Origin: Bacteroidetes bacterium CG12_big_fil_rev_8_21_14_0_65_60_17
GTDB taxonomy: Bacteria; Bacteroidota; Rhodothermia; Rhodothermales; UBA10348
Direction of reading: 5' to 3'
Length of the DNA stretch: 47,500 nucleotides
Assembly: GCA_002787815.1 (NCBI GenBank)
Contig: PCUY01000016.1
Location: 1-47,500 of the forward strand
Made by a program: the position numbers and the translations under genes. Position 1 is the first letter of the stretch, and each line of letters begins with the position of its first letter. The notes under the pieces are model-generated. The model made no database searches. It saw only the letters and a program-made list of their open reading frames with translations, and was not told where the DNA came from. Positions 27,667-42,850 of this stretch are shown here, one piece after another.

Positions 27667-30489
27667 TCAGAATGAGTAGGTCAGGCGTGCCATGGCCATG
27701 CGACCCAACTGCGGCGCCCCGATGAACTCGTAGTGCTCGTTGTCGGTCACGTTGGTCACATTCACGTCCAGGCGCAGGCCGGGAGTAAAGTCCGACAGGT
27801 CATAGCCGGCTCCCAGGTCCAGCAGGAAGTAGGAGTCGATCGTACCCTCGAATGGACCCGAGCGGATTGGAAACTCCTCGGTATAGCGCCCGGCCACGTT
27901 CACGGAAAGACCGTTCCTGAACGTGTACTGTGCGCCACCACGACCTTTGAAGGTCGGTGCGTTCAGCGCCAGGCTGAGTTGCGTACCGTCCTCGTCGAGT
28001 TCTTCGGCGTCGAAAAAGTCATCCGACACGAGCGACACGTTTCCGAACAGGCTCAGTGCATCGGATGCGAGGTATTGGAACGCGATATCGGCGCCGAAGA
28101 AATCCACATTACCGAAGTTGCGGTACGAGAGCATGAGCTCCGGCACGGCCCCGGGTCCCGGGTTGTTCTCGGCCGCCTGCACGATGGCAACGGGCGTGGA
28201 TGCATCCGGAAGGCTTCCGCCCGCAATATTCATGAGAAGCGAAGAAACGGCCTGCGGGGTCAGGCCGAACTGACTGAGTGCCCCCGCGAGCTGGGCGTTG
28301 CCGGAAATACCGTCGGTGAGTGCGGCTTGCAGGTCCGCATTCAGTGTCGGCACGAATACGAGTGGCGTCTCCATGAACAGCGGTCCGACGAAGTCTTCCC
28401 GGTTCGTGTAGTATCCATCGACCGTGATCAGCAGTTTGTTGTTGATGACGCCCTTGTAGCCGACCTCGAAGGTCTGCGTAATGGTCTGCTTAAGCGGGGC
28501 AATATCCACCAGGTCGTTGACAAAATTGGTCTGACCGGTGTTGGGGTTCACAATCCCCATTGCGCCACGTGAAAACCCTTGCACGTCCGTGCCGGCCTGG
28601 GGGGACAGGAGCGCAACCAGCTGCGCCACAACAGGCTCGGGAAGCGCCAGGCCGTTCTGCGCCAGAATGGCTGCAATGGTTGGTGTTCCCAGCGCCGAGA
28701 GGCCATTGTAGACCGACGCGTACGTGGCGTCGAGTGGAAGCCCCACTGGTGTCGGTGCACCAAGTGAGGCCGGGTTCAGGCTGGATGCCACCAGGTTCGT
28801 ACCGGCAATGGGCTCAAATGCGGCATTGCGTTCCCATGTGAATCCGTCGGCGGCACCCAGGCCGCGGACCGTGATGAGTCCTTTGAACTGACCAGCCACG
28901 ATGTCAAGAAAACTGGAGTTCGTGCCCGGCGACGAAAACGCCCGGTTGTAGGTCGCGCGGAAGGAGTGGTTCGTGGTGGGCTTGAAGACCAGTGCCGCGC
29001 GTGGCGAAAGCTGCACTTCGTCTACCACGCTGTGGTAATCGGTGCGCAGGGCAACCGTGAGGTCGAGCTTGTTCGTTACGCGTGATGTCGACTGGATATA
29101 CCCGCCGTACTCGTTGATATCGTCGTCATTCTCATTGCGGCCCAGGATGGTGCCCTCCGTGTCGGGCCGGGTAAACTCCATGTCGCCACCCACGATTACA
29201 TTGTGGCGACCGTTGGCGAGACTGAAATCGTACTGGGCCTGCGCCACGAACTGGCCGCCTTTGTCCACTACCGCATCGGATACGCCGTCCTGGTCAAAAT
29301 CCTGACCATATACGAACGAGTCCCCTGCGTCATTCTTGTTGTAGTAAACCTGGGCGAAAAAGTCCTTCAGCAGGAAGCGGAGCTGGTAGTACTGATACCC
29401 GAAATCGTCGGCCTGCAGCGTGCCGATACCTGACAGTACGGTCGAGTTCAGCTGGGAAAAACCGCCGTTGGCAATAACAGCCCCTTCCTCCGAGAAACGG
29501 TATTCCAGCGAACCGTTGATATTCAGCTTGTCGAAATCATTGTTTCGGGGACCGAAGGGCGGTACCCACGGGGCATCGTCAGGGCTGTTGGGGTCCAGTT
29601 CCCAGTCATCGGCCTGGGAATACATACCCGTTATCTTGTAGCCGAGTTTGCCGTTCGGGGCAACGCCAGCATGACGGAACTGTGTGGCGAACAGTGAGCG
29701 CTCACCGCCCTGGACGGAAATGGTCGTGCCGGGGTGGCTGAAGGGGTCTTTCGTGGTGAAATGCACCACACCAGCATCCACACCCGCTCCATAGAGGGCC
29801 GAGCCTGGCCCCCGGACCACTTCAATCCGGTCCAGATCCACGTTCATGTTGGGCATGATGCTGTAAAGGTTCACCGCCAGCGACGGTACCGCGGCCTGCC
29901 GGTAGTCGGTAAGTACGTGGGTCGCGCCGGAGAATGCATTGTTGAAGCCCCGGATCACAAGCTCGCGCCTGTCCACACCAGTCTGTTGCATGTCAACCCC
30001 GGGAGTCGAGCGCAGCACTTCCACGGACGATGCGCTCACGTCCCGCGCAATCTCTTCCGTGTTCAGGATGGAAATCGAAGCCGGGGCATCGAGCGCTTTT
30101 TCCTCCCGGCGGGAGGCGGCCACGACTACCGTATTGAGTTCGAGTCCCTGCTGACCGAGGACGAAGTCGACGGTATGCGAGCCACCGGACGTGACCGTGA
30201 TACTCGATTCCTGTTCCTGGAAGCCAACGAAACGGGCGCGGACCGTGACGAATCCGGCGGGGACGGAAAAGGAATACCTTCCATCGGCGTCGGTAGCCGA
30301 ACCACCGAGCATGGCTCCGTCCGCGGCCATGGCAACGATATTGGCGCCGGAAAGCGCAAGTCCATCTTCAGCGTCTGTGACGCGGCCGGAGATGGTACCG
30401 TTCTGTGCGGAAGCGCTTTCGGTCATGCTCAGGAATGCAAGCGCTGTGATCAGGCTTAAAAGCCCTTTTTTGGCGTAACAACCGTTCAT
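27667..30489 (-). CDS. TonB-dependent outer-membrane receptor, probably iron-related
   Basis: A 940-residue receptor: signal peptide (1-28, ending ASAQ), carboxypeptidase-regulatory-like domain (about 30-110, ISGRVTDAEDGLALSGANI), plug (about 125-245, with LNTVVVAASRREEKALDAPASISIL, VIRGFNN, VVRGPGSALYGAGVDAGVV) and a barrel ending NVTNVTDNEHYEFIG and LTYSF with a terminal aromatic. There is no STN domain, so it is an uptake receptor rather than a transducer. Alanine/proline-rich insertions in the barrel (for example SALGTPTIAAILAQNG) suggest large extracellular loops. It lies downstream of an FbpABC-type iron importer on the same strand, so a siderophore or iron substrate is inferred. The ATG at 30489 (MNGCYAKKG) fits the signal peptide. 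Confidence 0.9.
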   Translation of the reverse strand: MNGCYAKKGLLSLITALAFLSMTESASAQNGTISGRVTDAEDGLALSGANIVAMAADGAMLGGSATDADGRYSFSVPAGFVTVRARFVGFQEQESSITVTSGGSHTVDFVLGQQGLELNTVVVAASRREEKALDAPASISILNTEEIARDVSASSVEVLRSTPGVDMQQTGVDRRELVIRGFNNAFSGATHVLTDYRQAAVPSLAVNLYSIMPNMNVDLDRIEVVRGPGSALYGAGVDAGVVHFTTKDPFSHPGTTISVQGGERSLFATQFRHAGVAPNGKLGYKITGMYSQADDWELDPNSPDDAPWVPPFGPRNNDFDKLNINGSLEYRFSEEGAVIANGGFSQLNSTVLSGIGTLQADDFGYQYYQLRFLLKDFFAQVYYNKNDAGDSFVYGQDFDQDGVSDAVVDKGGQFVAQAQYDFSLANGRHNVIVGGDMEFTRPDTEGTILGRNENDDDINEYGGYIQSTSRVTNKLDLTVALRTDYHSVVDEVQLSPRAALVFKPTTNHSFRATYNRAFSSPGTNSSFLDIVAGQFKGLITVRGLGAADGFTWERNAAFEPIAGTNLVASSLNPASLGAPTPVGLPLDATYASVYNGLSALGTPTIAAILAQNGLALPEPVVAQLVALLSPQAGTDVQGFSRGAMGIVNPNTGQTNFVNDLVDIAPLKQTITQTFEVGYKGVINNKLLITVDGYYTNREDFVGPLFMETPLVFVPTLNADLQAALTDGISGNAQLAGALSQFGLTPQAVSSLLMNIAGGSLPDASTPVAIVQAAENNPGPGAVPELMLSYRNFGNVDFFGADIAFQYLASDALSLFGNVSLVSDDFFDAEELDEDGTQLSLALNAPTFKGRGGAQYTFRNGLSVNVAGRYTEEFPIRSGPFEGTIDSYFLLDLGAGYDLSDFTPGLRLDVNVTNVTDNEHYEFIGAPQLGRMAMARLTYSF

Positions 30490-30531
30490 GGGAATAAATG
30501 GTGGGTGAATGGGCCGTGAATTGTGTGAGGG

Positions 30532-30539
30532 CAATTATA
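30532..30539 (-). promoter_or_regulatory. Candidate -7/-10 element for the second TonB receptor
   Basis: The minus strand reads TATAATTG, 7 of 8 to TAnnTTTG and containing TATAAT, 42 bases before the ATG at 30489, in the 103-base gap after fbpC. No fitting upstream element was found at the expected distance. Confidence 0.35.
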
Positions 30540-30592: not shown

Positions 30593-31660
30593 TCAATCAC
30601 ACACGCCGGGGGGTTCGTCTTCGAGTACGATGGCAGCCTCCAACGGAACGATTTCGACCACATCCCGACAGGAAAATGTGAGCCGATTGTCCGTGTGTAC
30701 GAGCACCTCGGTATCAGCCGTTTTCACGGTCCAGGTGACGTCGTGCCCCTTGAATTCCCGCCGCATGATGACGCCGCGCGTCGTCCCGTCTGTGCCGGGA
30801 GCAGCGAGCGTCAGGTGCTCGGGCCTCAGTGAAACCCATGTCGGACCGGTCGCTGGCCTGTCCAGTGCAACAGGACCAAATCCCGTCTGCGCAGTCCGCC
30901 CATCGGCATGAGCAAGAACAAGGTTCGTAAGACCCAGGAACTGGGCAACAAATGGTGTCCGCGGTCTGAAGTAGATATCCTCGGGCGTTCCAGTCTGTTG
31001 GATGCGGCCGTCGCGCATGACCGCGATCCGGTCGGCGAACGAGAGGGCTTCCTCCTGGTCATGTGTGACCATGATGGCCGTGATACCGAATGCGGCCAGC
31101 ATGGATCTGATTTCGGAGCGCGTCGATTGGCGCAACTTGGCATCCAGATTCGAAAAGGGCTCATCGAGAAGGATGAGGGATGGACGGGGGGCCATGGAGC
31201 GGGCAATGGCTACCCGTTGCTGTTGTCCGCCCGAGAGCTCATGTGGATAACGGTGCCCGAGTCCTTCCAGGCCGACCGATGCCAGCAACTCAGCGACTTT
31301 CTTTTTCCGGTCGCGGCGACCCTTGAGTCCAAACCCGATATTCTGTTCCGCTGTCAGGTGCGGAAAGAGTGCGTAATCCTGGAAGACAATCCCGATACCC
31401 CTGTTCTCAGGCGGGACGGGCTGTGCACCCGGCTTGTTCAGAAGACGGCCCTCGTACCGGATGGAGCCCGATTCGGGGGTGTCGAAGCCCGCCAGAACCC
31501 TCAGAAATGATGTTTTTCCGCACCCGGAGGGTCCCAGCAGCGCAAACATTTCACCAGGCTCGACCTGGAACGTGACATCCCGCACCACAGGGGGCAGTGC
31601 GGCCCCATGGCGCCGTGTGATGCCGACAACGTCCAGTATGGGAGCGGAGGAAGTCTTCAT
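30593..31660 (-). CDS. ABC transporter ATP-binding protein, ferric iron type (FbpC-like)
   Basis: The cytoplasmic ATPase of the importer. The 355-residue protein has Walker A GPSGCGKTS (about 44-52), a Q-loop in GIVFQDYALFPHL, signature LSGGQQQR, Walker B LILLDEPFSNLDA, the switch histidine in MVTHDQ and a C-terminal TOBE-like region with WVSLRPEHLTL. The length and TOBE domain fit the FbpC/PotA/CysA group; iron specificity rests on the neighbouring binding protein. Its ATG overlaps the permease stop as ATGA. Confidence 0.92.
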   Translation of the reverse strand: MKTSSAPILDVVGITRRHGAALPPVVRDVTFQVEPGEMFALLGPSGCGKTSFLRVLAGFDTPESGSIRYEGRLLNKPGAQPVPPENRGIGIVFQDYALFPHLTAEQNIGFGLKGRRDRKKKVAELLASVGLEGLGHRYPHELSGGQQQRVAIARSMAPRPSLILLDEPFSNLDAKLRQSTRSEIRSMLAAFGITAIMVTHDQEEALSFADRIAVMRDGRIQQTGTPEDIYFRPRTPFVAQFLGLTNLVLAHADGRTAQTGFGPVALDRPATGPTWVSLRPEHLTLAAPGTDGTTRGVIMRREFKGHDVTWTVKTADTEVLVHTDNRLTFSCRDVVEIVPLEAAIVLEDEPPGVCD

Positions 31661-33252
31661 GCGGGCACGTCCGGATTGCTGTCAGAGTTCCGGTTGGATT
31701 CACGGTGAAGGAGCAGCCCCACGAAAAGGGAAGAAACGGCGACAATCATGAGGGCATGCGGGGCAGCCAATGCGTACTGTGCTTCATTGGTCAGGCTCCA
31801 TACGTTTACCGCAAGAGACTGGAAGCCGATCGGGGAAAGCAGATACGTAAGGGGAAGTTCCTTCATGACCGAGAGGAAGATGAAGGCAGTGGCTGTCACG
31901 AGACCAGGTCGGATGCTCGGAAGAACACTCGCCAGAAAGGCCGCAATTCGTGAACGACCCAGCGTGCGAGCCGACTCCTCAACCGATGGGTTCGCCTGGT
32001 AGAAGGCGGTTCGCAGGGGGCCAAGGGCTTCAGCCAGAAAATGCACGGCATAGACAGCAACGAGCAGGAACATGGTCTGATAGAGGCCGGGCGCCAGTGA
32101 CAGCGCCATGAAGATCACGGCCAGGGCCAGGGCCAGTGGGGGAATGGCATACCCCATCCAGGCAACCCGCTCCAGCCACTGTACGGATCGGATTCGGAGT
32201 CGGGCGCTGGCGTAGGCAACGGGAAGCGCCAGGACAACCGTCAGTACGGCGGCCGGTGCGGAAGCGGAAACGGACCCCAGAAGGGCCCCCGCGACGCTGA
32301 CTCCGGGTGATGACAGGCCACGCAGCGACCAGTAGACGAGCGTACCGAGCGGGAGCACCACCGACCACAGGGCGACGAGTGCCAGACCAGAAAGGACGGG
32401 AATGCGCCACGGCCCAAGTCGGGTCCGGGCCGGAGGCAGGGCCGATCCTGGGCCGCGACGGGCCAGGAATGTCGTGCGTAGCGATTTCGCCTCGGCCAAC
32501 AGAAGCGTAGCCGTGACGGCGAGGAGCATGAGAGCGAGCCAGGCGGCATAGAGACGGTCGAAGGCTCCGGTATACTGCAGGAAAATGGCATAGGAGAACG
32601 TTTTGAAGCGCATCAGGGAGACCACACCGAAGTCTCCGAGAACATGAAGGACAATGAGCAGCCCTCCGGCCATCCAGGCGGGCTTCAGTTGGGGAAGTAC
32701 AATGCGAAAAAATACCTGGCGGCGCGTCAGTCCCAGTGCCTGGGCGGACTCTTCGATGGAAACGTCCAGTCCGAGCAGTGCCGCGCGCAGATTCAGAAAC
32801 ATGTAGGGAAACGTATACAGACTGAGTGCCAGGAGGGCACCCACGTATCCTCCGGGTCGAGGAATGTCAACGCCCAGGGCGAGCGACAGCGCGCCGTATC
32901 TCCCCGAAACGGCCAGGAGCACATAAGCCATCACGTAACCCGGGATGGCCAGCGGGAGAACTCCGAGCAGCGTCACGAGGCGGCGGCCCGGGACATCCGA
33001 GCGTGTTGTGAGCCATGCCAGCGGGAGTGCAATCAGTGTGGCTACAAGAAGCACTCCCGCTGCGAGCGACAATGTGTTCGCCAGCAGATGCAGGTTGCGT
33101 GTGCGGAAGACGACACTGCCGAGGGTGGCCATGTCTGCACCTGCAGCGCAGAGCACCAGGTACGCGATGGGCAGAAAGACACCAACGGCGACAAAGGCGG
33201 CTGCAATCCAGACGGGCCAGTGCCGGACGAGACGTGCTGGTGTGTCCCTCAC
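31657..33252 (-). CDS. ABC transporter permease, fused two-domain FbpB type
   Basis: A 531-residue inner-membrane permease with about twelve membrane segments in two homologous halves; each half has the EAA-type loop (DVSIEESAQALGLTRRQVFFR near residue 180 and PSVEESARTLGRSRIAAFL near residue 430). This fused arrangement is typical of ferric iron importers. The start is a GTG at 33252 that overlaps the stop of the binding-protein gene as GTGA. Confidence 0.92.
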   Translation of the reverse strand: MRDTPARLVRHWPVWIAAAFVAVGVFLPIAYLVLCAAGADMATLGSVVFRTRNLHLLANTLSLAAGVLLVATLIALPLAWLTTRSDVPGRRLVTLLGVLPLAIPGYVMAYVLLAVSGRYGALSLALGVDIPRPGGYVGALLALSLYTFPYMFLNLRAALLGLDVSIEESAQALGLTRRQVFFRIVLPQLKPAWMAGGLLIVLHVLGDFGVVSLMRFKTFSYAIFLQYTGAFDRLYAAWLALMLLAVTATLLLAEAKSLRTTFLARRGPGSALPPARTRLGPWRIPVLSGLALVALWSVVLPLGTLVYWSLRGLSSPGVSVAGALLGSVSASAPAAVLTVVLALPVAYASARLRIRSVQWLERVAWMGYAIPPLALALAVIFMALSLAPGLYQTMFLLVAVYAVHFLAEALGPLRTAFYQANPSVEESARTLGRSRIAAFLASVLPSIRPGLVTATAFIFLSVMKELPLTYLLSPIGFQSLAVNVWSLTNEAQYALAAPHALMIVAVSSLFVGLLLHRESNRNSDSNPDVPA

Positions 33253-34253
33253 AGGAGCCCGACTTCTCGCAGCATGACGAGGGTTGCTTCCAGGTCATCC
33301 ATGCCTTCGAGCGCAACATCAGGCTTCAGTTCGCTCAGTTTGTCGAAGTCGGCAAGCTGCGTCCCGGGGGTGGCCTCGCGCGTCACGGGATATTCAAATG
33401 TTTCCGTGGCAAAGTAATTTTGCGCCGTGTTTTCGAGCAGGAACGCGATCAGGGCCTGCGACTCGGCTGTTTTATTGCTCGAGGCCAGGTGACCGATCCC
33501 CGCCACATTGATCAGGTTGCCGCTATTCCCGGGCGCGAAAAAGGACTGTTCGACCGGGTAGTCGGGATTGTCCGCCTTGTAACGGTAGAGGTAGTAGTGG
33601 TTTGGAATACCCAGATCGATTTCGGCGTTGGCAATGCCTTCCAGAATGCTTCGGTTGTTGGGGTACGAGGTCGCCCCGCCTTCCTTGACAGCCAGGAGCC
33701 AGTCGCGGGTGGACGCATCTCCAAGGGCCATGCGCATGGCGGTAACCGCGGCCTGGAACGATCCGTTTGTCGGAGCCCAGCCCAGGCGGGAAGCGAATTC
33801 CGGCCGGGCCAGCTCTTCAATCCGTTCCGGCAGGTCCTCAGGCGAAAGGCGTTCAGGAGACCAGGCCAGGACACGGGCGCGACCGCTCGTGGCTACCCAG
33901 GCCCCGCCACCAGCGGCAAATCCGGGCAGAACACGAGACGTCACGGCCTCGGGCAGGGGAGTGAAGAGACCGGCTTTCTGGACGGCACCGAGCGCCCCGG
34001 CATCCTGCGCCCAATAGACATCTGCAGGCGACTCGTCGCCTTCCTCAATGAGTGCCACCGCGAGTTGGGCTGTATCACCGTATCGGACGTTTACCTGGAT
34101 ACCCGTCTCCTCCGTAAAGCGGTCCAGCAGCGGCTGGACCAGCGACTGACTCCGGCCCGAGTAGAGTGTAACCGACGACGATTCGGGTTCCGAGCAACCC
34201 GTTGCGGAAACAAGGAGAATCAATGCAAGGAGTGGGAGCGGAAGCTTCTTCAT
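33249..34253 (-). CDS. Ferric iron-binding lipoprotein of ABC transporter (FbpA-like)
   Basis: A 334-residue extracytoplasmic binding protein. A lipobox SATGC gives the lipidated Cys at residue 20. The fold starts with VTLYSGRSQSLVQPLL, a typical FbpA/FutA opening, and the tandem tyrosines Y220-Y221 in IPNHYYLYRY correspond to the Fe(III)-ligand tyrosine pair of the family. The ATG at 34253 gives the signal peptide directly; the frame opens to 34286 without support. First gene of the fbpABC-type operon, with a 21-bp palindrome 41-60 bases upstream. Confidence 0.92.
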   Translation of the reverse strand: MKKLPLPLLALILLVSATGCSEPESSSVTLYSGRSQSLVQPLLDRFTEETGIQVNVRYGDTAQLAVALIEEGDESPADVYWAQDAGALGAVQKAGLFTPLPEAVTSRVLPGFAAGGGAWVATSGRARVLAWSPERLSPEDLPERIEELARPEFASRLGWAPTNGSFQAAVTAMRMALGDASTRDWLLAVKEGGATSYPNNRSILEGIANAEIDLGIPNHYYLYRYKADNPDYPVEQSFFAPGNSGNLINVAGIGHLASSNKTAESQALIAFLLENTAQNYFATETFEYPVTREATPGTQLADFDKLSELKPDVALEGMDDLEATLVMLREVGLL

Positions 34254-34292
34254 GACATGTGATTGATCGTGGCGGGTGCGCGACATGGATTC

Positions 34293-34371: not shown

Positions 34372-37300
34372 TCAGAGCTCGTTGCCCTCGCGCGACATGC
34401 GCAATGCCCGGCCGGGCCGGGCGCCCGTCAGTTCGCCATCCAGGAGCGCGGCCCGGCCGTTCACGAATACGTGGTGCACCCCCTCTGCATAGGCATGAGG
34501 CGCTCCGAATTCAGCCGTATCCCGGATGCTTTCCGGGTCGAACACCACAATGTCGGCCTTGTAGCCCGGGGCAAGTACGCCGCGGTCCTTCAGCCCAAGT
34601 CGCTCTGCAGGAAGTCTCGTCATTTTGTCAATGGCCACAGGCAGGTCCAGCACACCCTCTTCCCGGACGTAGCGCCCCAGGACACGTGCGAATGCACCAT
34701 AATTACGCGGGTGCGGGACACCTTCACCGAAGGCCGGAATGCCTCCATCCGATGAAATACTCGTCCACTCGTGCTGCATGATGCGTGCCACATCCTGCGG
34801 GGACATGGAGTGGAAAACGCCCGAGCATCCTCCGGCAGCGACCAGTTCCATGGCCATATCGGCAGCACCTTCCACCGTTACCGGCAGCCCACGCGCCTGG
34901 AGCATGTCGGCCAGGCTCATGCCATTCAGGGACGGGTCGTGTGCGCAGACGGCTGCAACGATCGTGGACGGATCGGCACCCCGCTCGACCCTGATGTGCT
35001 CTGCCACGTCTGCCCGGATGCTGGCGCGGGTTTCCGGATTGGACAGACGCGCTCTGAGGGCGCTGCTGCCTCCGTCCTTGGCCCAGTCCGGGAAGAGGAT
35101 GGTCATGCCTGTACTGGAAGCCGTGTATGGATACACATCGCTCGAGACGTCAATTCCTTCGCTGCGGGCGGCATCGATCAGGGCCAGCGATTCGCTGCTT
35201 CGACCCCAGCGGCCTTTTCCGATGACTTTGTGATGCGTGACCTGCGCCCGGATACCGGCCTGACGCGCGACGTCGATGACCTCCTGGACACTTTCCAGGA
35301 GGCGGCCCCCCTCATCCCGGATATGGCTTATGTAAAGCCCTCCTGCATCTGCTGCGGGCGCAGCCACGGCTGCAATCTCATCGGTTTCAGCAAACGCCCC
35401 GGGCGTGTACTCCAGGCCGGATGAGAGGCCGAACGCGCCCTCGTCCATCGCGCGCTTGACAAGGGCGGTCATTTCACGGAGTTCGTCCGCGTCCGGGTCA
35501 CGATCGCCCTCGCCCAGCACGGCGGCGCGCACGGAACCATGTCCCACGAACTGTCCGATGTTGATGGCGCCGGGTTCATTGTCCAGCCAGGCCAGCAGCG
35601 CACCCACATCCAGGGTCGACGATCCGTCCTGCCCGCCCATGGCAGTAGTCACTCCCTGACGCAGATAATTCTCGGCCATGGGTCGCCGAACGATGGCACT
35701 TCCTTCGATGGATGTACCCGTAGCGTGACTGTGGATGTCGATGAAGCCGGGAGCAATGGCAAGTCCGCGGGCATTGATCCGGCTCGAAGCCCAGGCTCCC
35801 GACAGATCACCGATGGCCGCGATCTGATCGTTGCGGAGACCTACGTCGGCCACGGTCCCGGGTGCCATGCCGGGCGCGCCGTAGAGCGCCGCTCCTTCAA
35901 TGATCACGGTCATGTCCGAATCGCGACGAATGCCGCGGCGCAGGGCGCGGCCCGGCATGGCACCCGTATGCGCGCCATTCCGGACCACCGGAACGCCGTT
36001 CACCAGCACGTGCTCCACGCCTGTAGCCAGCCGGTGTGGGTCCTCGAACGTGGCGTGGTCCCGGATGCTGTCCGGGTCAAAGACCACGATATCGGCAAGA
36101 TAGCCGGGCTCGAGCCTGCCACGTCCCTCGAGGCGGAGGCGCCCGGCGGGCAGCGATGTCAGCCGCCTGACAGCCTCTTCGAGCGAAATAACGCCCTCAT
36201 CCCGGACGTAGCGTCCCAAAAGGCGCGCCACATTACCGTAGGCGCGGGGATGCTGGCTCTGCTCCAGCACGCGACCCTCCGGGGCCATGGATCCCGCATC
36301 GGACCCGAACGCCATCCATGGCAGCGCAATCTGTCGCCGGACATTGTCCTCCGACATCAGGAAATACACGACCTCCACGCGGCTGGAATCCTGGATGACG
36401 AGGTCCACGATCGTGTCCTCCGGGCGCTGTCCGCGCTCCATCGCGATGTCGGACAACCGCCGGCCAATCAGATGCCGCAGGGAATCCTGCCTCAGTCCCG
36501 CGATCATGGTCCCTTCGGCGCCGGCTGCGAGATAAAGGTTTTCCCAGGAATCGGTAGGTGTACTTATTTCCACCTCCACGCGCCGACGCGTCCCGCCGTC
36601 CATGAGGCGCTCCCGCCAGGCCCCGAAACCTCCTTCCTGGACCCAGGGCGGCATGGCGGCATCGAGCCCCGTTGATCCCGCCGTATAGGTGTACATATTT
36701 GCACCTACCACCTGACCTGCCGCCTGCGCTTTCTCAACGCGGACTATCACGCTGTCCAATTTGTGCCAGTTATCGGCGCCAGCGGCTTTGAGGTGGAAAA
36801 TTTCCGTCCGCACGCCGGCCTCTCGCCCTATCGTGAGCAGTTCCTCAAGCGCCTCGAGCAGCCGATTGCCTTCAGAGCGCATGTGCGATACATACAGGCC
36901 ATCATATTCGGCGACCACGTCACTGAGCGCAATCAATTCTTCTGTATCCGCATAGAAAGCCGGGGCATAGATCAGCGACGTGCCAAGACCGAGCGCACCG
37001 TCCTCCATGGCACGCCGCACAAGGCCCCGCATGCGCCGGAGTTCCGCGTCCGATGGCGCGCGGTCCTCGTGTCCGAGTTCGTGCACGCGCACGGTGGTTG
37101 CGCCCACGAAGCTGGCCACATTCGTTGAAATTCCCCGCGCCTCAAGACCATCCAGGAATTCGCGCAGCGTCGTCCACGTGAAATCGTCATCCGGCCCGAA
37201 CTCCTCTGCTTTCATGGCCTCGCTGAGCGGTCCTTCGCTCGTGCCCTCCCCGAACACCTCGACCGTAATGCCCTGCATGATATCGCTCATGGAGCGTCCG

Positions 37301-37572
37301 TCACGTACCAGGCGCCCGGCCGCCCACGACAGCATATTGATGAACCCTGGAGATACCGCCTTTCCTGTGGCATCGATCTCCGTGCGCGCCGTTGCATCCG
37401 GCAGCATTGAGACGACAGAAATGGAATCGGCGTCAATCGCCACATCCGCCACGTAAGGTTCCATTCCCGACCCGTCGTAGACCGTTCCACCCCGGATAAT
37501 GATATCATGATCGGGAGATGCGCACGCCGAGAGCCCCACAGCGACTACGAAAAAAAGACACAGGTTACGCAT
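34372..37572 (-). CDS. Double-domain D-aminoacylase-type amidohydrolase lipoprotein
   Basis: A 1066-residue lipoprotein (lipobox LSAC, Cys17) made of two tandem amidohydrolase domains of the N-acyl-D-amino-acid deacylase group: domain 1 about residues 22-540 and domain 2 from 554. Both begin alike (DIIIRGGTVYDGSG and VIIEGAALYGAPG) and end alike (GYLADIVVFDPDSIRD and GYKADIVVFDPESIRD). Domain 2 keeps the metal-binding HSH (H614, H616 in GFIDIHSH) and THHK; in domain 1 the same place reads GFINMLSW (L81, W83), so the HxH is missing. Known members remove the acyl group from N-acyl-D-amino acids; the substrate here is unknown. The gene overlaps the SDR stop by 8 bases. The ATG at 37572 is chosen for the signal peptide. 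Normal family members have about 480-580 residues in one domain. Confidence 0.88.
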   Translation of the reverse strand: MRNLCLFFVVAVGLSACASPDHDIIIRGGTVYDGSGMEPYVADVAIDADSISVVSMLPDATARTEIDATGKAVSPGFINMLSWAAGRLVRDGRSMSDIMQGITVEVFGEGTSEGPLSEAMKAEEFGPDDDFTWTTLREFLDGLEARGISTNVASFVGATTVRVHELGHEDRAPSDAELRRMRGLVRRAMEDGALGLGTSLIYAPAFYADTEELIALSDVVAEYDGLYVSHMRSEGNRLLEALEELLTIGREAGVRTEIFHLKAAGADNWHKLDSVIVRVEKAQAAGQVVGANMYTYTAGSTGLDAAMPPWVQEGGFGAWRERLMDGGTRRRVEVEISTPTDSWENLYLAAGAEGTMIAGLRQDSLRHLIGRRLSDIAMERGQRPEDTIVDLVIQDSSRVEVVYFLMSEDNVRRQIALPWMAFGSDAGSMAPEGRVLEQSQHPRAYGNVARLLGRYVRDEGVISLEEAVRRLTSLPAGRLRLEGRGRLEPGYLADIVVFDPDSIRDHATFEDPHRLATGVEHVLVNGVPVVRNGAHTGAMPGRALRRGIRRDSDMTVIIEGAALYGAPGMAPGTVADVGLRNDQIAAIGDLSGAWASSRINARGLAIAPGFIDIHSHATGTSIEGSAIVRRPMAENYLRQGVTTAMGGQDGSSTLDVGALLAWLDNEPGAINIGQFVGHGSVRAAVLGEGDRDPDADELREMTALVKRAMDEGAFGLSSGLEYTPGAFAETDEIAAVAAPAADAGGLYISHIRDEGGRLLESVQEVIDVARQAGIRAQVTHHKVIGKGRWGRSSESLALIDAARSEGIDVSSDVYPYTASSTGMTILFPDWAKDGGSSALRARLSNPETRASIRADVAEHIRVERGADPSTIVAAVCAHDPSLNGMSLADMLQARGLPVTVEGAADMAMELVAAGGCSGVFHSMSPQDVARIMQHEWTSISSDGGIPAFGEGVPHPRNYGAFARVLGRYVREEGVLDLPVAIDKMTRLPAERLGLKDRGVLAPGYKADIVVFDPESIRDTAEFGAPHAYAEGVHHVFVNGRAALLDGELTGARPGRALRMSREGNEL

Positions 37573-38338
37573 GCCGGTGCACCATGGTGGCATGCGACTG
37601 ATCCGTACACATCATCAGGATTTCGCTGATGTTCACGTGAGGCGGCCGTGTGGCAGCCCAGAGCATGGCATCGGCCACATCTTCGGCCTGGAGGGGCGTC
37701 ATATTGGCGTAAACGCTGTCCGCCTTCTCCTCGTCCCCTTCGAAGCGGACGAGGGAAAATTCGGTCTCCACCAGGCCGGGACTCACGGCCGTTACGCGTA
37801 CGGCCGAGCCGTGCACATCCATTTTGAGACCTTCGTTCAGCGCACCCACGGCATGCTTCGTGGCGCAGTAGACCGTGCCACCCGGATACACCCAGTGGCC
37901 CGCGGTGGAACCCACATTGATGATATGACCTCGATTGCGCTCCAGCATGCCGGGCAGGACGGCTCCCGTTACGTACACCAATCCCTTCACGTTTGTATCG
38001 AGCATTCCATCCAGGTGCTCCGGCGTTGTGGCATAGCCTGGCGCGAGGCCGAGCGCTTTGCCCGCATTGTTGATGAGTACATCGATCTGCTTCCATGCTC
38101 CGGGCAGGGCGCCGAATACGTTGGCGACCGCTTCGCGGTCTGTTACGTCGAGCACGCGCACCAGAACATCTGCGCCAGTCGCGTCGGCTACCTCCCGCGC
38201 CGCCGCCTCCAATTTTCCTTCCCGCCGCGCCATCATGATGACGCGGGCCCCTTGACGGGCAAATGCCTCGGCGGCGGCGCGGCCTATCCCGGCAGATGCA
38301 CCGGTCACGCACACGATGGAATCATTCAGCCTGTTCAT
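37565..38338 (-). CDS. Short-chain dehydrogenase/reductase, YdfG-like
   Basis: A 257-residue NAD(P)-dependent oxidoreductase with cofactor motif TGASAGIG (12-19), NNAG (90-93), catalytic S144 and the YxxxK pair Y157/K161. R38-R39 after the second strand (MMARREGK) suggest NADP(H). It resembles the YdfG/serine-3-dehydrogenase group (3-hydroxy acid or L-allo-threonine dehydrogenase), but the substrate cannot be fixed. It overlaps the amidohydrolase gene by 8 bases, so a shared amino-acid-related pathway is possible. The ATG at 38338 is chosen; the open frame reaches 38518 on the opposite strand of the next gene. Confidence 0.88.
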   Translation of the reverse strand: MNRLNDSIVCVTGASAGIGRAAAEAFARQGARVIMMARREGKLEAAAREVADATGADVLVRVLDVTDREAVANVFGALPGAWKQIDVLINNAGKALGLAPGYATTPEHLDGMLDTNVKGLVYVTGAVLPGMLERNRGHIINVGSTAGHWVYPGGTVYCATKHAVGALNEGLKMDVHGSAVRVTAVSPGLVETEFSLVRFEGDEEKADSVYANMTPLQAEDVADAMLWAATRPPHVNISEILMMCTDQSHATMVHRHA

Positions 38339-38396: not shown

Positions 38397-39971
38397 ATGC
38401 ATTCATTCATTGTTCCGGGACGGGGCGTTGTCCCGATGGGACTTCTGCTCTTCGGCCTCCTGTTTCTCCCGACGGACAGCGCCCATGCCCGCCAGGACAC
38501 GGCAGGCGGGCGCACCAAATGCCTGTCCGGTGTGGCTGACGGTTATGCCTGTGACGGCGTGGATCTGCTCTCTCGTCTGGCTCCTGCCGACATGGGTGCC
38601 GTAAGCGGCGGTTTCCAGGCCGCGCTCAATGATATCTGGGGATGGACGGACGCGGAGACCGGCATGGAAGTCGCCATTGTCGGCCGCACGAACGGTACGT
38701 CCTTCGTGGATGTTACCGACCCCGCAAACCCCGGCTATCTCGGAAACCTGCCCCTGCGCGCGGGCACCACGGCGAGCGCGTGGCGCGACATCAAAGTGCA
38801 TGCGGATCATGCCTATATCGTGGCCGACAACGCTTCGGGTTCGGGTGTGCAGATTTTCGACCTCCGTCAGCTCAAGGGGCTTGCCCCGGGAGGGCGCACG
38901 TTCACGGAGACGGCTGTCTACGACGGCATCAGCCGCTCGCATAACGTGGCCATCAATGAAGACACGGGCTTCCTCTATGTAGTGGGCTCGGGTGGAAGCA
39001 ACTCCTGCGGAGGGGGACTCCACATGGTCGATATTTCGGAGCCGACCAATCCGGTCTTCGCCGGGTGTTTCGCCGATCCGGGTACGGGTCGGGCCGGAAC
39101 GGGATATGTGCACGATGCGCAGTGTGTCATCTATTCAGGGCCTGACTCGGACCACACGGGCCGGGAGATCTGTTTCGGCCTGAATGAAACGCACGTATCG
39201 ATTGTTGACGTGACCGACAAGAACGCGTCCATTCCACTGGCCCGCACCTCGTACCCGAACGTAGCCTATGTACACCAGGGTTGGCTCTCGGAAGACCAAC
39301 GCTACTTTTTTCAGGGCGACGAACTGGATGAGCAGCAGGGCATCACACCAAGCCGCAGAACGCTCATCTGGGATGTCTCCGACCTGGACGATCCTGTTCT
39401 GGCCGCAGAGTATTTTGCACCGGGGACGTCCATTGATCACAACATGTATGTGGTCGGCACGCGGCTCTATCAATCAAACTATGTGGACGGCCTGCAGGTG
39501 CTTGATATTTCCGATCCTGAAAATCCGGTCCAGATCGGCTTTTTTGACACGCAGGCGGCACCCGGTACGTGGACGGGGTCCTGGAGCAATTATCCGTTCT
39601 TCAGGAGCGGCGCCATTGCCGTCTCGAGCAGTCACGACGGTCTGTTCATGGTCCAGGAAAGCGACCGGGCACTCGTAACCGATGTGGCCGAAGCTGCCCA
39701 GCTGCCCCAGGCGATCCGTCTGGCCAGTGTGTACCCGAATCCGTTCCAGGATGCTACAACCATTCAGGTGGACGCCGACAGGCTGGTTCATGTGCGCATC
39801 TTCCTGATCGATGTATCCGGCCGGGAGGTACTCGACATCCATTCCGGAGAGTTGCAGCCCGGCACGCAGCATTTCCGCATTCCGTCGGCGCAGCTCTCCG
39901 GTGGAGCCTACTTCGTCCGCCTGGAAGGTGAGGGCGTGTCGGCCACGGAGTCGGTAATTTTGTTGAAATAA
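38397..39971 (+). CDS. Choice-of-anchor B family secreted protein with type IX sorting domain
   Basis: A 524-residue exported protein: signal peptide (to about residue 34, HARQD), a repeated beta-propeller-like region (about 60-430) with DIWGWTDAETGMEVAIVGRT, FVDVTDPANPGYLGN, CGGGLHMVDISEPTNPVFAGC and VDGLQVLDISDPENPV (the LVIVD-like repeats), and a C-terminal type A sorting domain (about 440-524) starting ASVYPNPFQDATTIQV and ending ESVILLK. Known proteins with this tail are moved across the outer membrane by the type IX secretion system. Conserved cysteines in the SCGGGLHM and AGCF/QCVIY blocks may form disulfides. Function is unknown. A paralogue follows 25 bases downstream. Confidence 0.88.
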   Translation: MHSFIVPGRGVVPMGLLLFGLLFLPTDSAHARQDTAGGRTKCLSGVADGYACDGVDLLSRLAPADMGAVSGGFQAALNDIWGWTDAETGMEVAIVGRTNGTSFVDVTDPANPGYLGNLPLRAGTTASAWRDIKVHADHAYIVADNASGSGVQIFDLRQLKGLAPGGRTFTETAVYDGISRSHNVAINEDTGFLYVVGSGGSNSCGGGLHMVDISEPTNPVFAGCFADPGTGRAGTGYVHDAQCVIYSGPDSDHTGREICFGLNETHVSIVDVTDKNASIPLARTSYPNVAYVHQGWLSEDQRYFFQGDELDEQQGITPSRRTLIWDVSDLDDPVLAAEYFAPGTSIDHNMYVVGTRLYQSNYVDGLQVLDISDPENPVQIGFFDTQAAPGTWTGSWSNYPFFRSGAIAVSSSHDGLFMVQESDRALVTDVAEAAQLPQAIRLASVYPNPFQDATTIQVDADRLVHVRIFLIDVSGREVLDIHSGELQPGTQHFRIPSAQLSGGAYFVRLEGEGVSATESVILLK

Positions 39972-39996
39972 GGAGCCCATCCTTTGACTTCGCGTC

Positions 39997-41937
39997 ATGC
40001 CAGACATTTCCCATACCGAGCTGTTTTGTGGCGAGCGAAAGCTCCAGGCTGTATTGGCCGTCGTCATCCTGCTGCTTGCAGCGTCTCCGATGGCGTCGGC
40101 ACAGGTCGTTGGTGAGGTGGGCACAGCATCCGGCATTGAGGACGGAAAGGGTCATTCTGCCGGTGCCGGTGCCGGAGTGGCGCACCAGGCTGCCACGGCC
40201 ACAGGGGGTGGCACTGCGAAGGGCGGCGCATCGACCCGATGTGAGAACGGCCAGGCGGGCGTGTTCGCGTGCCGGAATGTGGACCTCCGGGGGCACCTTA
40301 CGCGCACCGAACTCGGTCTACCGGACAATTGGCGCCTGAATGACATCTGGGGATGGGAGCATGCGGCGTCCGGACGCGCGTTCGCGCTCGTGGGGTCCAT
40401 GGGCAACGTGGTGTTCGTGGACGTAACCGATCCGGATGGGCCAGTGGTTGTCGGCAACCTCCAGCGTCCGGTACAGACCTCTCCGACCACCTGGCGGGAT
40501 ATCAAGGTGATTGGCGACATGGCCTTCGTGGTGGCCGATGGCGGAGGATCGGCCGAACACGGCATGCAGGTATTCGATCTCACGCAACTGCTGGACGTTC
40601 CGGAGGGAGAGGTGCGTTCCTTTACCGAAACGGCGAGGTATGCCGGTTTTGGCGCGGCGCACAATGTAGTGGTGCACCCCGAACGCAATCTGGCCATCGT
40701 GGTCGGCGCGAACCGAAGCGGCGAAACGTGTGGCGGGGGACTCCACATGATCGATGTGTCCGAGCCCACGCGGCCCGCGTTCCTGGGGTGTTTCAATGAC
40801 GGATCGTCGCGCCGCGGCTATTCCCACGATGCCCAGTGCGTGACCTATGCCGGCCCGGACCAGGTCTGGACGGGGCGTGACATCTGCGTGGGATACAACG
40901 AGGATGCGATTGTGCTTTCGGATATCACCAATCCGCAGAGGCCACAGCAGGTGAGCGCCGCCACGTACCCGCAGTCGGGATACGTGCACCAGGGCTGGTT
41001 CACGGACGATCACAGGTACCTGGTGCAGGATGACGAGCTTGACGAATCGGCCTTCCAGCACGGGACAATCACGCGGATCTGGGATGTGACGGACCTCGAC
41101 GATCCCGTGCTTGCCGCGACATTTGAAAGTCCGCTCACGAGTATTGATCACAACCTGTACGTGCGGGGTTCGCTCGTCTTCCAGGCCAATTATACCTCTG
41201 GACTGCGCATCTTGGACATATCGGACCCCGAGAACCCCGTGCTGAAGGGCTTTTTCGATACGTTTCCGCAGGACGACGCTACGAATTTCAACGGCGCCTG
41301 GTCGGCGTGGCCCTTTCTTTCAAGTGGCCTCGTGCTCGTCTCCGACCGGGACAACGGACTCTTTGTGCTCGAGCCGACAGATGGCCGTCTGACGACGGTC
41401 ACCAATATCTCGTTCGAAAGCCGATCGTCCGGGCAGGTGGAGGCGCGCTGGAACGTATCGAGCGTCAGTGGATCGGTGCGTGTTGCCGTTCAGCGGCTGT
41501 TGCCCGACGGCTCCTTCTCGACGGAAGCCAGTTTTTCAGCCGTTGTCGGTCAGTCCGAGGCTTTTACGCTGTCGGGCCTGGAGCCGGGACGTCATGTCCT
41601 GCGGCTCGTCGTGGTGGAGACTGACGGGACGGAGCTCGAGGTGGCCAGTGAAGAGGTATTCATTCTGCCCGAAAAAATCGTGCTCCAGGGCCCGTTTCCG
41701 AATCCTGCACGCACGACGAGCACGATTCGCGTGGTGGCCGGGGAAGACGCGCGTGTGCGCCTGCGGTTGTACAATGCCGCTGGCCGGGAGGTACACTTCC
41801 TGATGGATGCGGTCGTGCGCGCTTTCACCGTGCGCACGGTGACCATCGATACCTCCCCGCTCGCCGGGGGGACCTATTTCATACGCGCCGAGGCCGGTGG
41901 CGTGGAAACCACGAAGGAGCTGACCGTTATTCGCTGA
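39997..41937 (+). CDS. Second choice-of-anchor B secreted protein with Fn3-like and type IX sorting domains
   Basis: A 646-residue paralogue of the preceding gene product: signal peptide (to about residue 36, MASAQ), a Gly/Ala-rich linker (about 48-75), the same propeller-like region (about 90-460: DIWGWEHAASGRAFALVGS, CGGGLHMIDVSEPTRPAFLGC, LRILDISDPENPVLKGF), an added Fn3-like segment (about 470-560, ISFESRSSGQVEARWNV) and a type A sorting domain (GPFPNPARTTSTIRV to the end, KELTVIR). The pair probably comes from duplication with later gain of the Fn3-like part. The ATG at 39997 gives a longer N-terminus before the signal helix (MPDISHTELFCGERKLQ), so an internal start is possible but no good one is seen. 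Confidence 0.87.
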   Translation: MPDISHTELFCGERKLQAVLAVVILLLAASPMASAQVVGEVGTASGIEDGKGHSAGAGAGVAHQAATATGGGTAKGGASTRCENGQAGVFACRNVDLRGHLTRTELGLPDNWRLNDIWGWEHAASGRAFALVGSMGNVVFVDVTDPDGPVVVGNLQRPVQTSPTTWRDIKVIGDMAFVVADGGGSAEHGMQVFDLTQLLDVPEGEVRSFTETARYAGFGAAHNVVVHPERNLAIVVGANRSGETCGGGLHMIDVSEPTRPAFLGCFNDGSSRRGYSHDAQCVTYAGPDQVWTGRDICVGYNEDAIVLSDITNPQRPQQVSAATYPQSGYVHQGWFTDDHRYLVQDDELDESAFQHGTITRIWDVTDLDDPVLAATFESPLTSIDHNLYVRGSLVFQANYTSGLRILDISDPENPVLKGFFDTFPQDDATNFNGAWSAWPFLSSGLVLVSDRDNGLFVLEPTDGRLTTVTNISFESRSSGQVEARWNVSSVSGSVRVAVQRLLPDGSFSTEASFSAVVGQSEAFTLSGLEPGRHVLRLVVVETDGTELEVASEEVFILPEKIVLQGPFPNPARTTSTIRVVAGEDARVRLRLYNAAGREVHFLMDAVVRAFTVRTVTIDTSPLAGGTYFIRAEAGGVETTKELTVIR

Positions 41938-41968: not shown

Positions 41969-42838
41969 TTATGGCGAGCGCCGGATTTCCCATACGGTCA
42001 TTCCGCCGGCAATGACCAGGCCGACGAGTCCCCACAGGATCACAGGCCAGATATCCGCCGTCCATGCCGGGAACAGGACCGAGCCCTCGTCGGCCAGCCA
42101 GGGCCAGAGCGAGCGGAGTGAGCCGGCCATGAGACCGACCAGCAGGCTCATGGTAGCGTCATGGTAGCGGGCCAGGAGCCATTTCAGCAGAATGGCAAAC
42201 GATCCAAGTCCCAGGCCCGCCCCCAGGCCGAAAACAGCAATGACGGGCAGATTCGTAGCTTCGATTGCTTCAAACAGCGGTTTATACATACCCAGTACGA
42301 GCAGCAGGAACGCGCCCGACACACCGGGCAGGATCATGGCGCAGATGGCCACGGCACCGGCCAGGAAGTAGGCAACCAGTGACGGGTTTTCAAGCTCGAG
42401 AGGTTGCAGTCCGACCAGGTACCAGGCCAGAATCGCGCCCGCAACAACCCAGGCCAGCAGCATGCTGCGGCGATCCGCGATGCGCAGAAGCGGTATGGGA
42501 AGTGAGCCCAGGATCAGGCCGAAAAAGAGACTTCGGCTGAGCTCGGGCCATCTGTCGAGCGCATCGGGTATGAGTTGGGCGCCGGCAACCGGGGCTATCA
42601 ACACGCCTGCACCGATGGCGCTCACAAAGCCCCAAGGAATGGAGGTCAGGCGTTCCCGGAATGATCCGGTATCGAGACGGACCAGGTCCAGTCCGGCGCG
42701 GAACAGGTCGCCCAGTACGCCAATCAATCTGTCGTAGATTCCGAAAAGAAGGGCCATCGTCCCACCGCTGACGCCCGGAATCACGTTCGCAGCACCAATG
42801 GCTATCCCTTCCAGGACGTGCCCCGCCCATCTCCACAT
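41969..42838 (-). CDS. DUF368 family membrane protein (PopT-type polyprenyl-phosphate transporter)
   Basis: A 289-residue inner-membrane protein with about eight hydrophobic segments and two copies of the family motif: NVIPGVSGGTMALLFGIYD near residue 20 and MILPGVSGAFLLLVLGMYK near residue 165. DUF368 proteins have been reported as undecaprenyl-phosphate flippases (PopT) that recycle the lipid carrier for envelope polymers; assignment here is by family. ATG 42838 is chosen over the GTG one codon upstream. The TPR gene lies 12 bases upstream on the same strand. Confidence 0.9.
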   Translation of the reverse strand: MWRWAGHVLEGIAIGAANVIPGVSGGTMALLFGIYDRLIGVLGDLFRAGLDLVRLDTGSFRERLTSIPWGFVSAIGAGVLIAPVAGAQLIPDALDRWPELSRSLFFGLILGSLPIPLLRIADRRSMLLAWVVAGAILAWYLVGLQPLELENPSLVAYFLAGAVAICAMILPGVSGAFLLLVLGMYKPLFEAIEATNLPVIAVFGLGAGLGLGSFAILLKWLLARYHDATMSLLVGLMAGSLRSLWPWLADEGSVLFPAWTADIWPVILWGLVGLVIAGGMTVWEIRRSP

Positions 42839-42850
42839 CACGGTATGGGC

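Follow-up and report, generated by a model that had tools for sequence, protein, structure and literature searches.

The window analysed here is a 47,500-nucleotide stretch of DNA from Bacteroidetes bacterium CG12_big_fil_rev_8_21_14_0_65_60_17 (contig PCUY01000016.1, positions 1 to 47,500). Its minus strand, on which the gene, its sites and its cassette partners lie, encodes a protein of 1066 amino acids with two D-aminoacylase-type amidohydrolase domains (34372..37572), as identified from the open reading frame and its translation, Pfam and PDB matches. In the translation, the start Met is at 37572 and the stop is at 34372. The Pfam family Amidohydro_3 is found in each half of the protein, and in a PDB search domain 1 (D1; residues 22-546, 35935..37509) and domain 2 (D2; residues 554-1060, 34393..35913) each align end to end with D-aminoacylase structures. 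Between them is a seven-residue junction (residues 547-553, 35914..35934), from which the stop codon of D1 and the signal peptide of D2 present in unfused relatives are gone. The fusion retains one export signal only, an N-terminal lipoprotein signal peptide (residues 1-17, 37522..37572), whose lipobox, read by eye, ends in LSAC (...GLSAC) and is identical in both other fused genes (genomes G002 and G003). An earlier note on this DNA had described one open reading frame with two full homologous amidohydrolase domains in a lipoprotein; the reading frame, the coordinates and the domains are all verified, and the lipobox, again by eye, agrees with export.

Fold of the two domains

The AlphaFold2 models have a mean predicted local distance difference test (pLDDT) score of 93.9 for D1 and 86.4 for D2. 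In Foldseek searches the D-aminoacylase group is closest to both models (E values of 1e-39 to 1e-48), and the D2 model matches 1m7j, the Alcaligenes faecalis D-aminoacylase, best. Superposition of the D1 model on 1m7j gives a Z-score of 56.5 and a root-mean-square deviation of 1.7 Å over 463 residues; the deviation is 1.7 Å across 462-465 residues for 1m7j, 3gip and 9kb1, and Z-scores are 55-57 for the D-aminoacylase group. Both domains have the β-sandwich plus (β/α)8 barrel with an insertion that is seen in 1m7j, 3gip and 9kb1.

The A. faecalis enzyme, a subtype V member, has in common with each domain the whole fold, the β-site histidines, the catalytic Asp and the carboxylate-binding Lys, Tyr and Arg, but it is a single-domain protein with both an HxH motif and a Cys ligand, whereas D1 lacks both and D2 lacks the Cys. 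The N-acyl-D-glutamate deacylase of Bordetella bronchiseptica (3gip, Z 57.0 to D1) and the N-acyl-D-amino-acid deacylase of Klebsiella pneumoniae (9g5m, Z 56.4) share the D1 fold but are also single-domain proteins, the latter with HTH in the printed alignment.

Against NCBIfam NF006560 (PRK09061 amidohydrolase subfamily), which has a cut-off of 340 bits, D1 and D2 alone score 205.7 and 203.3 bits, both under the cut-off, while the whole protein reaches 398.2 bits because the two sub-threshold domain scores are summed. A pass obtained by summing in this way is an annotation pitfall for two-domain proteins.

Integrity of the fusion and selection on its halves

The same in-frame junction, with seven residues in all three fused genomes, is present in G002 and G003, which belong to the same genus and have 86-89% identity per domain. 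An erroneous join, made in sequencing or assembly while the cell produces two proteins, would be in keeping with the separation of the genes in most relatives and with G010 and G017, where they share a frame with a stop between them. However, three genomes whose synonymous divergence is near or above 1 have a common junction and spacing, and the whole D2 signal peptide is gone, which is beyond the loss of a stop codon. Since three genomes have one junction, assembly error is rejected, and only a very slight chance is left to it. The earlier note's own refutation test, a missing stop due to a sequencing error, thus failed when applied.

Among the fused genomes the ratio of non-synonymous to synonymous substitution rates (dN/dS) is 0.057-0.078 for D1 and 0.058-0.081 for D2, and it is 0.108-0.13 over the junction (residues 536-575), where dS is about 0.8-1.1; all these figures are approximate because dS is high (0.8-1.6). 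Both halves are clearly under purifying selection, to a similar degree, after fusion.

It is close to certain that the protein did not arise by a recent tandem duplication in which one of the copies is decaying. The domains are homologous and adjacent, as that explanation has it, but they share 37% identity, against about 55-65% between D1 and its relatives in other phyla, and in the tree D1 falls in one clade, separate from D2, with support of 100/100. Because of these identities and the tree, duplication is rejected.

The predicted site of domain 1

D1 is a member of a clade named here for its INMLSW motif (residues 78-83, 37324..37341), which by alignment and conservation stands where characterised relatives have HxH. 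As the earlier note had it, L81 and W83 align with the two histidines of that motif, and the subgroup that it mentioned is recognisable in 103 aligned rows from many phyla, taken from the genome scan and the family with the window copy counted twice. Asn79 is present in 100 of these rows, Leu81 in 99 and Trp83 in 100, so that the α site on strand 1 has lost its HxH to a conserved new motif; the exceptions, slight and orderly, are DMQSW, NMLSH and NVLSW (three rows each) and NILSW and NMMSW (one row each).

The loss is not limited to HxH, since the cysteine that defines subtype V (Cys/His/His) is also gone in both domains. In D1 its place is taken by Glu109-Gly110. Glu109 (37246..37248) is invariant (103/103) and lies where the second barrel strand ends, or just past it, when the strands are counted on the model; it is the natural candidate to replace Cys as a metal ligand. 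Equally invariant in all 103 rows are His230 (36883..36885) and His260 (36793..36795), the proposed β-metal ligands, Asp425 (36298..36300), the proposed catalytic base, and Lys262, Tyr202, Tyr294 and Arg443. The A. faecalis residue numbers used in the mapping differ by at most one from those of the printed chain.

By the alignment to 1m7j and the available excerpt of the published account (PMC12017989) of PpOngB, a GlcNAc1A deacetylase (9kb1), His230 and His260 match the β-site histidines and Asp425 the catalytic Asp; Tyr202, Lys262, Tyr294 and Arg443 match residues that bind the amide oxygen and the carboxylate. A serine of PpOngB that also contacts the carboxylate is not conserved in D1, where the consensus is mostly Ala. 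PpOngB and D1 share the fold and, as proposed for D1, the β-mononuclear plan, and Tyr194, Lys254, Tyr285, Asp368 and Arg379 of PpOngB all have invariant counterparts in D1; unlike D1, PpOngB has Cys97 and an HxH motif, which the same excerpt reports as needed for activity. In the proposed D1 site, Glu109, His230 and His260 would bind a single metal at the β position; Asp425 would activate the water, and Lys262, Tyr294 and Arg443 would hold the carboxylate of the substrate. The earlier suggestion that D1 may still bind one metal is supported.

The predicted site of domain 2

D2 retains the HxH motif of the D-aminoacylase family as HSH at residues 614-616 (35725..35733), as the earlier note had read it, and both histidines of this α site are invariant in all 23 aligned rows. 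Asp649 (35626..35628), which aligns with the Cys of 1m7j, replaces that subtype V ligand in 23/23. The same invariance holds for His750 (35323..35325), a proposed β-metal ligand, for His780-His781 (35230..35235), among which the second β-site histidine would be found, and for Asp942 (34747..34749), the proposed catalytic base, as well as for the putative anchors of the carboxylate and the amide, Lys782, Tyr814, Arg956 and Tyr722. D2 would use an ordinary site, with Asp649 in place of Cys.

Distribution and origin of the fusion

The fusion is lineage-specific and confined to one genus. It is found in three of the 27 genomes of the family, and the same three are the fused ones among 114 genomes of the order; there are two in a phylum sample of 296 genomes (G000 and G003; G002 was not drawn) and two among the best 80 loci from a scan of 84,980 genomes, one per species (L032 and L033, the genomes of G002 and G003). 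No fusion in another lineage was found in the 114 order genomes, in the phylum sample, where scoring took in just the top two candidates of each genome, or in the best 80 scan loci, other phyla not having been searched genome by genome. The earlier statement that family members normally have a single domain holds in the family, order, phylum and scan samples searched. No description of a fused D-aminoacylase or of the INMLSW clade was found in the open-licence literature, judged from titles and the starts of abstracts.

The usual arrangement in the family is a pair of separate genes: D1 and D2 are adjacent, in the same order and on the same strand, in 16 of the 27 genomes. In one genome (G008) they are on different contigs, three (G012, G016 and G019) have either less closely related genes on separate contigs or no D1-like match, two (G014 and G026) have fragments only, and one (G023) has no match. 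G001, an unfused member of the same genus, retains the D1 stop, a short spacer and the D2 signal peptide, and in most other unfused pairs D2 opens with its own lipoprotein-like or other signal, judged by eye. Since the fused genes have neither the D1 stop nor the D2 signal, the change exceeded the point loss of a stop codon. In G017 (L125 5625-9008) and G010 (L121 4702-9063), D1 and D2 are in one frame with a single stop between them, an arrangement that is possibly a pre-fusion state. The long open frames of these two genomes were considered as a second fusion, which was ruled out, as each consists of two open reading frames parted by that stop.

The tree places G001 as the sister of the fused copies in both the D1 half and the D2 half, with support of 100/99, which fits a single fusion event. 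D1 forms a long-stemmed clade, and the PDB rows are long branches. At two Saprospiraceae-type loci (L094 508-3886 and L101 887-4270) a D2-like gene with 42-43% identity stands divergent beside D1; these two rows are not firmly grouped with D2.

The ancestral family cassette would have contained two adjacent genes on the same strand, encoding D-aminoacylase-family paralogues of ancient divergence, D1 with INMLSW and D2 with HxH retained. In one genus, a deletion or an equivalent change would have taken out the D1 stop, the spacer and the D2 signal peptide, and the outcome would be one lipoprotein in which two complete enzymes are connected by a seven-residue linker. Such a fusion would hold the two activities together in a fixed ratio.

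Probable catalytic competence of the two halves

Taken as a whole, the protein is probably an ancient gene pair, now fused, in which both halves are catalytic exported amide hydrolases, D1 with one metal and D2 with HxH and Asp649. That both halves are catalytic is inferred from their conserved residues, and characterised enzymes offer precedents for a site of the predicted D1 kind. According to the excerpt of PMC12017989, D-aminoacylases and PpOngB function with a single zinc at the β site, and a second metal attenuates AfDam. In the part of PMC6016474 available, the NagA of E. coli has QxN in place of HxH and is active with a single metal, and the QxN double mutant of a mycobacterial NagA retains activity with a seven-fold higher Km. 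The metal ligands of Klebsiella NagA include E131, H195 and H216, as given in an extract of PMC12409433. In these partial sources, NagA of the E. coli type (CE9, subtype IV) has one metal, activity free of HxH and a Glu/His/His site with Asp, as is proposed for D1. It is otherwise remote from D1: no NagA is among the listed closest folds of D1, an absence that does not exclude likeness, and CE9 enzymes act as dimers (PMC12017989, same excerpt).

Several observations weigh against this reading. In the excerpted accounts, the H68A or H70A change in the HxH of PpOngB abolishes activity (PMC12017989) and an AxA mutant of the mycobacterial NagA is inactive (PMC6016474), so that loss of HxH can kill such enzymes. 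The sequence alignment places Glu109 one residue ahead of the Cys position, and no member of the D1 clade was found among solved structures. As regards the gene pair, the pairing is not universal in the family: in one of the 27 genomes (G006) the dehydrogenase is followed immediately by D2, and the locus (L117 5052-7616) has no D1. In the other families of the order, wherever both D1 and D2 were found, they are separated by tens of kilobases or sit on separate contigs. By these partial sources, loss of HxH is compatible with activity in the superfamily, yet costly.

The mutants, together with the long stem of the D1 clade, are what would be expected if D1 were a pseudo-enzyme without HxH, serving as a binding, scaffold or regulatory module for an active D2. 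This is unlikely, although it deserves to be kept in mind. The other catalytic and carboxylate-anchoring residues of D1 are invariant in all 103 rows, the D1-clade genes of other phyla mostly have no neighbouring D2, and D1 and D2 are under equally strong selection. The division into one active and one binding domain, suggested in the earlier note, is not borne out by the retained Glu/His/His, Asp and carboxylate- and amide-binding residues or by the equal selection on the two halves.

The gene cassette and its neighbours

The conserved order of the family cassette is short-chain dehydrogenase, D1, D2 and TonB receptor. The dehydrogenase (SDR; 37565..38332), for which the closest NCBIfam model is YdfG, below its cut-off, is conserved upstream of D1, and its stop overlaps the start of the fusion gene by 8 bases. 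Of 20 regions searched with the window genes, 18 contain D1 and D2, either fused or adjacent; the SDR gene is directly upstream in 16 of the 18, the remaining two ending at a contig edge inside D1, and the TonB-dependent receptor (27667..30534 in the window) is downstream in 15, the remaining three ending at a contig edge. A ferric-iron-type ATP-binding cassette (ABC) transporter, with an FbpA-like binding protein, a permease and an ATPase (30593..34286), is located between the fusion gene, or D1-D2, and the receptor in all four genomes of the genus (G001, G002, G003 and the window); it is absent from the other family regions among the 20 surveyed.

These neighbours raise the idea that the pair serves iron uptake, the TonB receptor importing an amide-containing iron chelate that the hydrolases cleave, with the iron then taken by the ferric ABC transporter. 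The binding protein matches solved ferric-iron-binding proteins (best E value 8.9e-90) and is present with its transporter throughout the genus, and the best NCBIfam model of the cassette's receptor is a siderophore-receptor subfamily. However, the receptor scores 129.8 bits against a curated cut-off of 223.5, and D1 has many other neighbours elsewhere. Outside the genus the cassette has no iron transporter, so that iron is unlikely as the ancestral role; the explanation as a whole is quite improbable.

Elsewhere, the neighbours of D1 vary. Among 77 D1-clade loci in other phyla, with flanks of varying length, a beta-lactamase or D-aminopeptidase-like gene is beside or near D1 in 10, and five have a dipeptide-epimerase-like MR_MLE gene there; the annotated representatives score below the curated NCBIfam cut-offs. 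An SDR-type gene is near D1 at four loci outside the family (L035, L048, L070 and L074), which is not counted as evidence because SDR genes are common and there is no chance control; the beta-lactamase-like and epimerase-like neighbours, likewise without a chance control, are not counted either.

Two further features accompany the cassette. At 38397-41937 are neighbouring genes for two related proteins that have LVIVD repeats and a C-terminal Por_Secre_tail sorting domain; the genes diverge from the cassette, and their place next to it is conserved in relatives. A VCA0040-like gene at 41969-42841, conserved near the cassette, is undecaprenyl phosphate translocase-like by Pfam, as annotated on its L118 homologue.

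Function and implications

The best-supported assignment is that the two halves are most likely exported enzymes that hydrolyse N-acyl amino acids or related amides, derived from a conserved gene pair that one genus has fused. Acting outside the cytoplasm, both domains would cleave such substrates or similar amides, and the neighbouring TonB receptor would import the substrate or the product. The D1 neighbours in other phyla lean towards peptides or amides of D-amino acids. The role in D-amino-acid scavenging proposed in the earlier note is plausible from the family and from some of these neighbours; the locus in this genus also has the ferric ABC transporter and the TonB receptor.

A more specific proposal, which we hold tentatively and at somewhat less than even odds, is that the members of the INMLSW clade are active relatives of D-aminoacylase with a new one-metal centre (Glu/His/His, with Leu-x-Trp for HxH and Glu for Cys), that D2 represents another variant of the centre, in which HxH is kept and Asp stands in for Cys, and that the fusion unites two steps that complement each other in degrading a single amide substrate at the envelope. 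The fusion is a natural hint that both enzymes cooperate, and it provides a single protein in which both can be tested. The D1 clade is a large, multi-phylum group of D-aminoacylase relatives with a predicted metal site unlike that of every solved relative found. Should the clade prove active, homology-based annotation assigns it the wrong metal centre and perhaps the wrong substrate; should it prove inactive, predicted enzymes in their hundreds have no enzymatic function.

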